Source: a virus. Taken from it: a DNA stretch of 30,686 nucleotides. Every line of letters starts with the position of its first letter. Positions within the stretch are counted from its first letter, which is position 1. The stretch spans positions 1 through 30,686 of IMG/VR virus record IMGVR_UViG_3300014050_001171; one strand, 5' to 3'. Below, one piece after another: positions 2,485 through 21,128 of this stretch. The position numbers and the translations under genes are program-made. The notes under the pieces were generated by a model. That model made no database searches. It was not told where the DNA came from and worked only from the letters and a program-made list of their open reading frames with translations.

Positions 2485-2670
2485 TTATTCTGTATCTTTG
2501 TGTTCAAGTTTCGGAATCATGCTAGTATCATCATATGATATGCTTTTGATATCAATTACAAGAACAGGAGTTTTGTCTGGACTACTCTGTTGAAATTTCT
2601 GAACTAAACTATTAATATCAGACAATATCTTTTCGCCGCTAATCCCCTTATTCAAAACATAATATCTCAT
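2485..2670 (-). CDS. hypothetical protein, 61 aa
   Basis: Unrecognised. MRYYVLNKGISG leads into a helix (residues ~12-30) and a strand-like PVLVIDIKSI (residues ~35-44). It is flanked on both sides by family B repeats: copies 2 and 3 lie upstream and copy 1 follows its stop, so it may be a single-gene unit. Confidence 0.6.
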   Translation of the reverse strand: MRYYVLNKGISGEKILSDINSLVQKFQQSSPDKTPVLVIDIKSISYDDTSMIPKLEHKDTE

Positions 2671-2683
2671 AAGACTTCATTAT

Positions 2684-2732
2684 CTCGCTGACTACGACCA
2701 AAAAAACCAATCTTGGTATATAGGGTGATACA
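2684..2732. repeat. family B element, copy 2 (diverged)
   Basis: CGCTGACTACGACCA start, then a hairpin ACCAA-TC-TTGGT that replaces the usual stem with a different but paired one. It sits in tandem with copy 3, 19 bp apart, with no gene between them, and directly 5' of the 61-residue gene to its left. Confidence 0.65.
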
Positions 2733-2751
2733 ATTTCAAAGACCCTAAAAA

Positions 2752-2800
2752 ATTCGCTGACTACAACCACCAGAACAAAATCCGTAGGATTGGGCGAGAC
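2752..2800. repeat. family B element, copy 3
   Basis: CGCTGACTACAACCAC, then AATCC-GTA-GGATT and GGGCGAGAC. It touches the stop codon of the membrane-protein gene to its right. Confidence 0.8.
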
Positions 2801-2994
2801 TATGATAAGTCATCTTTATAATCTTCCTCAAGAATTACAGAATAATTATCTTCCATAAATTTAACATCATCATTACTCTGTTTCTCAATAAATGGTTTTT
2901 CTATAATCACATATTCTGGTTCAAAGAATATGGAATATAGTATGCAAGAGGTTCCAATTATTGTTAGGATTATAATAACGGTTAACAGAGCCAA
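2800..2994 (-). CDS. membrane-anchored small protein (TTG start)
   Basis: N-terminal hydrophobic helix (residues ~2-24, ALLTVIIILTIIG..CILYSIFF) followed by a 40-residue acidic tail. There is no ATG before residue 46, so TTG is the only reasonable start; it lies 15 bp after the upstream stop, consistent with coupled translation. It ends in family B copy 3. A lipobox is not convincing (GTSC). Confidence 0.55.
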   Translation of the reverse strand: MALLTVIIILTIIGTSCILYSIFFEPEYVIIEKPFIEKQSNDDVKFMEDNYSVILEEDYKDDLS

Positions 2995-4734: not shown

Positions 4735-4772
4735 AGAATTTTTCCTTTCTGCAAAATCACAAAGACCTTGGT

Positions 4773-4822
4773 TTTTCGCTGACTATCACTAAGACCGCCA
4801 AATCCGCAGGATTGAGTAAGAC
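4773..4822. repeat. family B element, copy 4
   Basis: TTTCGCTGACTATCACTAAG, then AATCC-GCA-GGATT. Unlike most copies it has no gene stop directly to its right; it lies in the leader of the Nudix operon. Confidence 0.8.
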
Positions 4823-4880
4823 TTATATTAGATTTGAAAAATAGAAATACAGATTATAATCCTATTATTCTATTATTATT

Positions 4881-6181: not shown

Positions 6182-6258
6182 CTAAGTCATTGATTGGCAA
6201 GTACTTACGCTTCGGCCGCCGCCACCAACTGGACGTAAGTCCTTTAGTGATCTAGGTT
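6182..6258. repeat. family A element, full copy 2
   Basis: CTAAGTCATTG..CAAGTACTTACG, core CGGCCGCCGCC, CGTAAGTCCTTTAG. The right hairpin contains the stop codon of the phosphoribosyltransferase gene. Confidence 0.88.
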
Positions 6259-6747
6259 TAGGAGCGGAACCCCGAGATCACGCTTGCAGAGTTTAGAACC
6301 ATCCTCATCATTACGATAAGCACATTCGTTAGGCAGATAGCAATACACACCAACACAATGAGAACACGAGTATTCATCCTTGATTACTTTTTTAATATGT
6401 TTTACGGTTCCACCAGAACAGATTAAATCGTCTAATATAATATATTGAAAAGGGGCCACTCCCTCGGTACGAAACTCTGAATAGCATTGTTCCCCCTTTC
6501 TTACCACAACAATATTCTTGTTGAGTAACTCTGCGATTTGTGGAACCACCATCAATCCACTTACACCGCAGCAGGCAATACTATCAAAGTCTTTGGCAAT
6601 CTTTCGCAGATCACACACGGCCTTAATAATAATCTTATTTCTAGCCTTATGATTTAAAACGTGACAGGTATGGCTAGCACCCTGAATATATTTTCCTTCT
6701 GTAGTTTTACGAACATCCTCAATCTGATTATTCAAAATATTGGTCAT
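6244..6747 (-). CDS. type I phosphoribosyltransferase
   Basis: 167 residues with the PRPP-binding motif ILDDLICSGGT at residues 104-114 (two Asp then a Gly/Ser/Thr loop) after a hydrophobic strand, and VSGLMVVPQIAELL upstream, the usual Rossmann-like layout of adenine/orotate-type enzymes. These transfer a base to PRPP in nucleotide salvage; the base here is unknown. Two extra Cys pairs (CSHCVG, NECAY..KLC) near the C-terminus are unusual. The ATG lies 6 nt after a tRNA-like gene with no ribosome site, so translation may start on a tRNA-processed, nearly leaderless mRNA. Confidence 0.85.
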   Translation of the reverse strand: MTNILNNQIEDVRKTTEGKYIQGASHTCHVLNHKARNKIIIKAVCDLRKIAKDFDSIACCGVSGLMVVPQIAELLNKNIVVVRKGEQCYSEFRTEGVAPFQYIILDDLICSGGTVKHIKKVIKDEYSCSHCVGVYCYLPNECAYRNDEDGSKLCKRDLGVPLLNLDH

Positions 6748-7186: not shown

Positions 7187-7202
7187 GACCAAAAACTTGA
7201 AT

Positions 7203-7250
7203 CTTTCGCTGACTATCGCCAAGACTGCAAATCCGAAGGATAGGGTAAAA
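7203..7250. repeat. family B element, copy 5
   Basis: TTTCGCTGACTATCGCC, AATCC-GAA-GGAT. It touches the 3' end of tRNA-Trp, so B elements follow RNA genes as well as protein genes. Confidence 0.82.
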
Positions 7251-7321
7251 CAAAGGCGGAGGGAATCGAACCCTCATCTACGGTTTTGGAGACCGTCATT
7301 CTACCGTTGAACTACGCCAAT
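7251..7321 (-). tRNA. tRNA-Trp (CCA)
   Basis: Anticodon arm ACGGT-CTCCAAA-ACCGT, T arm GAGGG-TTCGATT-CCCTC, D arm GTTCAACGGTAGAAT. The acceptor (ATTGGCG/CGCCTTT) has two mismatches. No encoded CCA. Confidence 0.85.
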
Positions 7322-7783: not shown

Positions 7784-7855
7784 AGCCGACAGAGGGAATC
7801 GAACCCCCGACAGGTTGTTTACAAAACAACTACTCTACCACTGAGTTACGTCGGC
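7784..7855 (-). tRNA. tRNA-Thr (TGT)
   Basis: Acceptor GCCGACG/TGTCGGC, D stem ACTC/GAGT, anticodon arm GTTGT-TTTGTAA-ACAAC, T arm GGGGG-TTCGATT-CCCTC. First tRNA of the array, 2 nt after the stop of the upstream protein gene, so the array is probably cut from a shared mRNA. Confidence 0.95.
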
Positions 7856-11856: not shown

Positions 11857-11885
11857 ACTATACCTTATCGACCAATCGTTGTCAA
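11857..11885 (-). promoter_or_regulatory. promoter of the 11850-11054 operon
   Basis: TTGACA (11880-11885), 17 bp spacer ending CGATAAGG, TATAGT (11857-11862), then six bases and ATG. Confidence 0.85.
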
Positions 11886-11896
11886 GACCTTTAAAC

Positions 11897-11945
11897 TTTC
11901 GCTGACTACAGCCACTCTAGCCAAATCCGAAGGATTAGGAGAAAC
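11897..11945. repeat. family B element, copy 6
   Basis: TTTCGCTGACTACAGCCAC, CCAAATCC-GAA-GGATTAGG. It starts where the 78 nt candidate RNA ends. Confidence 0.82.
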
Positions 11946-12023
11946 AAGGCTGGCTTCCGCCATACTCGACCAGCATTTCAGATAGCCTCTTTTGATATCA
12001 TTGTGGCTATCCCCAAGCCTTGC
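11945..12023 (-). ncRNA. candidate 78 nt structured small RNA
   Basis: Its promoter predicts a start at about 12023. From there the RNA begins CAAGGCT and ends AGCCTTG, a perfect 7 bp closing stem. Inside are GATAGCC/GGCTATC (perfect, 17 nt loop) and GCTGG/CCAGC, which competes with the closing stem and could act as a switch. The only start codon opens a 7-codon frame without use. Family B copy 6 follows directly, exactly as it follows genes elsewhere. Confidence 0.6.
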
Positions 12024-12029
12024 TCCCTA

Positions 12030-12058
12030 AGTCTACCAGTATTATCGGCGTTTGTCAA
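12030..12058 (-). promoter_or_regulatory. promoter of the small RNA
   Basis: TTGACA (12053-12058), 17 bp spacer with CGATAATACT, TAGACT (12030-12035). Confidence 0.83.
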
Positions 12059-13221: not shown

Positions 13222-13250
13222 ATTCTACTATCTAGTATCGGCTCTGTCAA
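13222..13250 (-). promoter_or_regulatory. promoter of the 13201-12140 operon
   Basis: TTGACA (13245-13250), 17 bp spacer with CGATACTAGA, TAGAAT (13222-13227). Confidence 0.88.
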
Positions 13251-13275: not shown

Positions 13276-13360
13276 TACCATAAAGCGTTTTTGCGTAAGC
13301 ACTTGCGTCAAAGCCGCGGCCTCCACCTCTCCGTAAGTCCTTACGGGACAAGGCTTTATA
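13276..13360. repeat. family A element, full copy 8
   Basis: CATAAAGCGTTTTTGCGTAAGCACTTGCG, core GCCGCGGCC, CCGTAAGTCCTTACGG. It closes the large RNA unit in the place where other copies close genes. Confidence 0.83.
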
Positions 13361-14048
13361 AAAACCAGCGAATCTTTTACGCCCCGATTCTATTACCCAT
13401 ATGGCAACCCTGTTACGGACCATAGGAAACCGCCCACGGAAACCTTCCTAAGATTGGTCATGACTCAATCTATCTGGCTCTTGGGGACGGTTACTGGTTG
13501 TGTTGCTTCGCAACTTATATTGTGTGGTATTCTTGTGTGTACTAAAAAATACCCAAAAAACCTATACTGGGAAACGGCTATCCAGTACTTGCCGACGATT
13601 TTTAACTTTTCATTGACAGAATCAGTAAAACTGTATGTTGGTCGTGGTGAGGACGCGATCCCCCATAGATTGGTACTTCTATCCAACGTATAACCCCGTT
13701 GGCAACTCCCCCAGTCTTTCAGAGAAAGTTTATCGAAATAGGTTATCCCAATCTAGTCCTAGGCATGGACCCACGAAAGTTTGTATTGTCAAGGGCGAAG
13801 GATGGAATCGAACCACCTCTAAGCATTTGGTTGCCTACTCCACCAGTTTGGTGTCTCGGACTTCTCGTGCTACCATTACACTACATTCGCCATATTTTAG
13901 GGACGGATGGATTCGTTGATGCTTTGGCGTCACAGGCAACTGCCTCAGCCCGCGCTCTCAACTTGACCATCTACTTCACTGCCGTTTTACCGGGAAGTTG
14001 CTCACGCAACCTAGCAGTCCCTATTGTATTGTCAATGATCGGCTGAAC
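13361..14048 (-). ncRNA. candidate ~690 nt structured RNA with an embedded tRNA (GOLLD/ROOL-like architecture)
   Basis: This stretch has a good promoter (14055-14082) and a family A element at its far end but no credible protein frame on the minus strand; the one 73-codon frame needs a TTG start and has no ribosome site. It is full of helices: GGGAC/GTCCC (14017-14021 with 13900-13904), GTTGC-GTGA-GCAAC (13997-14010, GNRA loop), GTTGA/TCAAC (13915-13962), TAGATTGG/CCAATCTA (13666-13755) closed by GGAC/GTCC, CCAACG/CGTTGG (13683-13702), CTTTC/GAAAG (13716-13728), TACTGG/CCAGTA (13565-13587) and GTTGC-GAA-GCAAC (13502-13514). A tRNA-like gene sits in the middle. Large size, phage setting and an internal tRNA recall GOLLD and ROOL RNAs; I cannot confirm membership. 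Confidence 0.65.
13793..13891 (-). tRNA. tRNA-like gene inside the large RNA, expanded anticodon region
   Basis: Acceptor GGCGAA/TTCGCC, D arm GTGT-AATGGTA-GCAC and T arm GGTGG-TTCGATT-CCATC are clear. Between D and T arms lie 49 nt instead of ~25; they pair as CACC-AAACT-GGTG and give no normal 7 nt anticodon loop. An intron, a large variable arm, or loss of decoding are possible. Confidence 0.6.
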
Positions 14049-14054
14049 TCTTGT

Positions 14055-14082
14055 ATTCTACAGTCTATTATCGACCTGTCAA
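14055..14082 (-). promoter_or_regulatory. promoter of the large RNA
   Basis: TTGACA (14077-14082), 16 bp spacer with CGATAATAGA, TAGAAT (14055-14060). Confidence 0.88.
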
Positions 14083-14110: not shown

Positions 14111-14192
14111 ACGTAAGATATTGAGAAGCAAGCACTTACGACGATCCCGGCCCGGCGAGTTTGCCCTAAGTCCTCTTGTGCTAAGAACTTAG
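14111..14192. repeat. family A element, full copy 9
   Basis: CGTAAGATATTG..GCACTTACG, core CCCGGCCCGGCG, CCTAAGTCCTCTTGTGC..AACTTAG. 11 bp from the next stop codon. Confidence 0.85.
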
Positions 14193-14203
14193 AGCGAACC
14201 CTT

Positions 14204-16771: not shown

Positions 16772-16786
16772 CAGCAAAATCCCACT

Positions 16787-16836
16787 TTTTCGCTGACTAC
16801 AGCCACACTGACCAAATCCGTAGGATTGGCTGAGAC
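16787..16836. repeat. family B element, copy 7
   Basis: TTTCGCTGACTACAGCCAC, CCAAATCC-GTA-GGATTGG, GAGAC; touches the stop codon of the gene to its right. Confidence 0.85.
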
Positions 16837-17006
16837 TAATCGAAATCTCTCATAGCCTGTCGCTTCTGGTCACTGCGAGTGCGAAGTCGCTTGGGTCGGT
16901 TGTCGTGCTGACCAGATCCAGACATATGGCTAGAATGACCCTTACCCATCTCCCACACTGGACGAATGTTCAGCCGAATCGCGTCGTATTTCTTTCGCTT
17001 GCTCAT
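16836..17006 (-). CDS. basic 56 aa protein with DNRPKRLRTR motif, leaderless
   Basis: MSKRKKYDAIRLNIRPVWEMGKGHSSHM.. then HDNRPKRLRTRSDQKRQAM. Shares GH...DNRPKRLRTR with the overprinted gene at 8066-8254, defining a small phage family of unknown, probably nucleic-acid-related role. -10 box TAGGAT, six bases, ATG: another leaderless arrangement with no ribosome site. Confidence 0.8.
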   Translation of the reverse strand: MSKRKKYDAIRLNIRPVWEMGKGHSSHMSGSGQHDNRPKRLRTRSDQKRQAMRDFD

Positions 17007-21042: not shown

Positions 21043-21128
21043 TCTAAGTCGTTATGCCACAAGTACTTACGTCGAATCCGCGGCCGCGAATTTTTCGTAA
21101 GTCCTTACGCCGTAAGGGTTTGCATCAA
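21043..21128. repeat. family A element, full copy 17
   Basis: CTAAGTCGTTATGCC..AAGTACTTACG, core CCGCGGCCGCG, CGTAAGTCCTTACGCC..AGGGTTTGC. Followed at 21134-21149 by TGTAC-AGTAGT-GTACA, identical to the hairpin after copy 16. Confidence 0.9.

Follow-up and report, generated by a model that had tools for sequence, protein, structure and literature searches.

A noncoding unit of an uncultured phage as a probable array of exchangeable, self-closed RNA modules

The tRNA operon of phage T4 yields a single precursor from which two stable RNAs, species 1 and species 2, are released together with the tRNAs. Bacterial and phage Y RNAs (YrlA) are bound by Ro60. Among larger noncoding RNAs, GOLLD sometimes carries tRNAs in its linker region, and a ROOL example measures 659 nt (PMC12286853). 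We analysed a virus record of 30,686 bases (the window), which contains genes for terminase, portal, an ERCC4-type nuclease and DUF932 as well as nine tRNA genes, so that the tRNA-rich phage setting described in an earlier note on this DNA was borne out. The same note had proposed that a noncoding unit in the window is one ~690-nt RNA of the GOLLD or ROOL kind with a tRNA embedded in its middle, while allowing that it could be a new class. The unit is real, promoter-bounded and located on the minus strand. Judging from sequence, it is probably (about 0.6) a polycistronic array of small structured noncoding RNAs, in which exchangeable modules are set in A-rich linkers.

The promoter is of the sigma-70 type and complete, as claimed earlier (14055-14082, minus strand; -35 TTGACA at 14082-14077, 16-nt spacer, -10 TAGAAT at 14060-14055), and arrays in related phages are preceded by promoters of the same type. 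The leader, GTTCAGCCGATCATTGACAATACAA (14024-14048, minus strand), ends in an AATACAA linker, and its GATCATTGACAA is common to other arrays led by the module M3. The assertion that the unit holds no credible protein also survived a check for frame conservation: among relatives of the modules M1 and M2, length differences fall in all three phases and nearly every frame is interrupted by stops, and a protein-coding unit is ruled out because no reading frame is conserved.

One copy of the repeat element A (14130-14195, repeat family D2, unstranded) lies upstream of the array's own promoter. Another (13281-13357, unstranded), consisting of paired palindromes with a GC-rich centre between them, follows directly after M2. 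The element said to end the unit is thus present, but it adjoins the next promoter (-35 at 13250), so that "end element" is only one reading of it. Over a dozen copies of element A occur in the window (repeat families D1-D3, e.g. 6183-6259, 13281-13357 and 21045-21121), often located just upstream of promoters; in each, two TAAGTNNTT...AAGNNCTTA palindromes flank the GC-rich centre at a distance of 53 bp from each other. At two loci in relatives, L023 and L024, paired TGCCAAAA(A/T)GGCA palindromes flanking a GC-rich centre take its place, and this replacement by different palindromes suggests that element A may be an operator of changing specificity. A second repeat, element B, is a AATCCTNCGGATT hairpin followed by (G)TAGTCAGCGA and recurs where coding, tRNA or single-RNA units end (window 2669-2802, 4760-4824, 7190-7253, 11884-11947 and 16775-16838).

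Following the leader, and likewise on the minus strand, M3 (13898-14023, ~126 nt) is closed by TAGGGAC/GTCCCTA, and tRx (13794-13891) is a tRNA-like RNA with acceptor, D and T arms, in which small hairpins replace the anticodon arm. The linker CTTGACAATACAAA (13780-13793) forms the junction to M1 (13640-13779, ~140 nt), a four-way junction closed by TCGTGG/CCACGA and bearing one exchangeable hairpin arm. Between M1 and M2 lies a weakly bounded, window-specific piece, "M20" and its flank (13502-13639), for which a search found no relatives. M2 (13361-13501; ~133-170 nt in most relatives) is closed by ACCAG/CTGGT and has two exchangeable arms and a 3' hairpin, GAATC-GGGGCGTAAAA-GATTC. Each of the main modules (M3, tRx, M1 and M2) is therefore closed by its own terminal stem, and their best relatives reside in different phages: M3 matches L008 (95% identical), tRx the L047 group, M1 L154/L157 and M2 L118.

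In the window, 88% of the expected base pairs fall within modules, compared with 44-66% for shifted boundaries. The long-range closing stems of the earlier note fared less well: the one predicted, pairing leader CGATCATTGAC with GTCAATGA in 13639-13502, is confined to the window, and the partner of CGATCATTGAC was absent from all other arrays with the same leader. Since pairs are mostly intra-module, and phages differ in which modules they carry and in what order, the reading as one ~690-nt RNA was not confirmed.

The claim of many clear helices was confirmed, and their support comes from covariation and not from energy, as the folding energy of the whole stretch is only slightly better than that of shuffles (z = -1.55). 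A 40-sequence alignment of M1 revealed a closing stem, a short second hairpin, a long third stem containing an internal hairpin and the exchangeable arm, and a T-arm-like hairpin. Double changes were found in 14 of its 30 pairs, with 96.3% of cells paired; none of 500 shuffles scored as high, and sliding the partner by 1-3 columns lowered pairing to 33-52%. For M2 (25 sequences), 9 of 30 pairs are doubly changed and 96.9% of cells are paired (slid controls, 30-45%); because its outer stems hardly vary, most of this support is due to the second arm and the 3' hairpin. The covariation sought by the earlier note is thus present in homologues of both modules. Closing stems of other modules have likewise changed on both sides, as in M3, whose stem differs from that of the window yet remains complementary in L191 and L189; several of the alignments concerned, with no more than 2-7 sequences, are weak for that reason. 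Hairpin arms are also swapped as blocks, a pattern search returning 29 M1 arms and 24 and 34 M2 arms.

The tRNA-like module was matched by RF00005 at 13890-13794 with 28.0 bits, just under the gathering score of 29, when the unit was searched up to E = 5, and its counterpart in L067 reached 32.5 bits in a search of four array-bearing relatives. ARAGORN called tRx neither in the window nor in the relatives that carry it. A functional tRNA was rejected on the absence of an anticodon arm, the sub-threshold score of the window copy and the silence of ARAGORN. Other phages have tRx at the head of the array, have it behind the array under a promoter of its own, or lack it. Of the embedded tRNA, then, the tRNA-like sequence stands (13891-13794), but its central position does not hold elsewhere and its anticodon arm has been replaced. 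A possible chance resemblance between short motifs of M1 and M2 and 23S rRNA was set aside, the Rfam rRNA models giving no match.

Relatives were gathered through two neighbouring proteins and DNA patterns from M1 and M2, giving over 160 loci, many on the same contig. In blastn searches the unit fell apart into blocks that were shared, in varying combinations, with different contigs. Each array is a row of RNAs with complementary closing ends, separated by linkers such as AATACAA, and 22 module types were seeded in a catalogue that is incomplete. Arrays with both M1 and M2 show 27 distinct orders, M2 preceding M1 in none; counts are by locus, and shared contigs inflate the numbers per order but not the orders themselves, while some arrays are truncated at the end of a contig or include modules too divergent for blastn to find. 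M9, M17, tRx, M10, M23, M3, M19 and M5 occur upstream of M1; M11, M8, M7, M14, M13, M6, M12 and M20 occur between M1 and M2; and M21, M22, M17 and tRx occur downstream of M2. In the catalogued orders the first two sets do not overlap, except for M7 before M1 (L107) and M5 after M1 (L191). The 75 distinct junctions have a mean length of 8.2 nt and consist of 60% A, 19% T, 19% C and 2% G, with AATACAA in 40 of them. Some modules are truncated or chimeric (a short M1 at L009:10884-10964 and an M12/M2 hybrid at the 3' end of L191) and resemble recombination products.

A model of M1 (R1) matches 17 and a model of M2 (R2) 16 of 20 long related records (122-238 kb), mostly once each, with a second M1 or M2 match in three. 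As catalogued, M1 and M2 are carried by nearly every complete array, and the other modules are mixed around them. The smallest array, promoter-M1-M2-element A, is that of L164; this 4.6-kb contig was binned with an alphaproteobacterial genome from a lake metagenome, which gives only a weak hint of the host because a phage contig may be mis-binned.

Some modules form transcription units of their own. In L023, M7 lies between a promoter of its own and a terminal element B, M9 in L190 has a promoter followed by a second one for M3-M5-M1-M2, and tRx in L004 is transcribed from its own promoter downstream of M2. M23 occurs apart from M1/M2 arrays in 46 loci and as the 5' module of arrays in L076, L082 and L108. 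The window itself carries a single-module unit (11944-12023, minus strand) with its own promoter (-35 at 12058) and element B after it. This RNA (12023-11944) is likely a divergent M23 homologue because both share the motifs AATGATATCAAA and GTCGAGTATGGC, on which the assignment rests, the alignment covering the 3' part only. In a more distant phage (L189/L112), M5 and RNAs resembling M3 and M4 sit apart from one another, with spacers that are longer and AT-rich, and neither the M1 nor the M2 model gave a match there. The existence of such stand-alone units is the chief ground for regarding the modules as RNAs in their own right, which fold and probably act alone.

The separate closing stems, the covariation of M1 and M2, the A-rich junctions and the re-ordering in relatives together argue that the unit is a chain of independently closed, exchangeable modules and not a giant RNA with an internal tRNA. 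The underlying sequence facts are strong. Under the array reading, one early transcript from the strong sigma-70-type promoter would comprise M3, tRx, M1, the window-specific piece and M2. Its linkers would stay single-stranded and might be cut by a host endonuclease of the RNase E type, giving separate stable RNAs as from the T4 precursor; alternatively, the modules could be left joined as beads on a string. The sites favoured by RNase E are single-stranded and have a uridine two bases downstream (PMC5222698), and AAUACAA could be such a site.

We infer more weakly that the RNAs may act in trans, as tRNA-like decoys or as regulators of host RNA-binding proteins or RNases; possible targets are tRNA processing, anticodon nucleases and other defences. 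The idea draws solely on diversity and tRNA-like shape, which extends beyond tRx to T-arm-like hairpins in some M1, M5 and M13, since such shapes and rapid exchange of parts would fit these roles. On this view, an arms race would account for the swapping of entire modules and of hairpin arms. We tentatively extend the array reading, at somewhat less than even odds, to a combinatorial cassette system: a shared pool of more than 20 RNA families, A-linked around an obligatory M1...M2, reshuffled at linkers and hairpin arms and trans-acting against RNA-based processes or defences of the host. The sequence CGTAAAA immediately precedes the 3' strand of a stem in M2 (window 13365-13390), M21 and M22 alike (L012:11296-11372 and L019:11170-11253), and is a possible shared binding motif. 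RNA ligase matches were found in 7 of 18 related records (5 over the cut-off) and RtcB in 2 of 18, both together in the records behind L070 (G003) and L154 (G020); RNA repair was rejected as a constant partner of the arrays, these genes being patchy. Pistol ribozymes are found a few kilobases outside arrays (L118:7571-7633 and 7790-7852, L016:9943-10005, and five long relatives).

The fixed M1-before-M2 order and the distinct sets flanking M1 are not needed by free-standing RNAs and count against the array reading. They are the best argument that M1 and M2 act in one molecule, a single multi-domain RNA of variable length in which both would be obligatory cooperating domains, usually in one copy per record, and the others optional at fixed joints; the short linkers of similar length agree with it. 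The mode of action of such an RNA would resemble that of the ornate large RNAs and might involve multimerisation. The modules with promoters of their own, the occurrence of M1 without a recognised M2 in L023 and L024 and the lack of conservation of the only predicted inter-module stem speak against it, and we regard it as unlikely, though the strongest competitor of the array. A role as cis-acting leader or attenuator of the downstream gene is far less probable. At L091:3785-3860 and on the reverse strand of L192 (about 2540-2570) the array does run directly into a reading frame, with a ribosome-binding site after an AATACAA linker; in the window and many relatives, however, an element A or a further promoter intervenes before the next gene, and a leader has no need of many exchangeable modules. 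The gene in L091 and L192 is placed as if it were the last cassette of the array.

A giant RNA like GOLLD or ROOL would account for the size, the phage origin, the tRNA genes nearby and the tRNA-like insert, but it is scarcely credible given the chain of self-closed modules of variable number and the outcome of the Rfam searches proposed earlier. At gathering scores Rfam 15 returned only tRNAs over the whole window, and up to E = 5 the sole match over the unit was the sub-threshold tRNA, with no GOLLD and no ROOL. Four array-bearing relatives gave tRNAs, the Pistol ribozymes outside the arrays, weak below-threshold matches and nothing else over the modules. A functionless, decayed remnant of a tRNA array, to which the missing anticodon arm of tRx might point, is equally implausible, being contradicted by the compensatory changes, and by the loops kept nearly invariant, across dozens of divergent phages.

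The suggestion of a new class proved right in that the module families are absent from Rfam. A blastn search of 50,697 records of named phages (INPHARED) gave no match for the region or for 15 joined modules, and the open-access library searched held no description of such arrays. Judged against Rfam 15, INPHARED and open-access papers, the arrays are previously unlisted, and an earlier description elsewhere is possible. We know of no other noncoding RNA organisation in which closed cassettes are exchanged around a fixed pair. The arrays add a set of RNA families absent from Rfam 15, in uncultured lake-type phages, and make testable both the roles of such RNAs in infection and the evolution of RNA modules by shuffling, like that of protein domains.

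Like GOLLD, the unit is a large noncoding stretch in a tRNA-rich phage region, and like ROOL it is of about the same size, from a phage and near tRNA islands; it differs from both in lacking a match to the Rfam model, and from ROOL also in its variable module content. The arrays consist of self-closed modules variable in number and order, with a conserved M2 on the 3' side, which modules can follow, and an equally conserved M1. Y RNAs likewise have a tRNA-like module within a noncoding RNA, but a TROVE/Ro60 gene was found in none of 20 related records (some possibly incomplete), on which ground a Ro60 link was rejected, and no Rfam match exists. Phage tRNA clusters share the tandem closed RNAs and the genome neighbourhood, but most modules here are not tRNAs and tRx lacks an anticodon arm. 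The T4 operon is similar in being a polycistronic phage unit with stable non-tRNA RNAs beside tRNAs, processing being presumed here; it has two such RNAs in a fixed cluster, whereas the arrays draw on 22 catalogued types in at least 27 orders around M1 and M2, joined by A-rich linkers.
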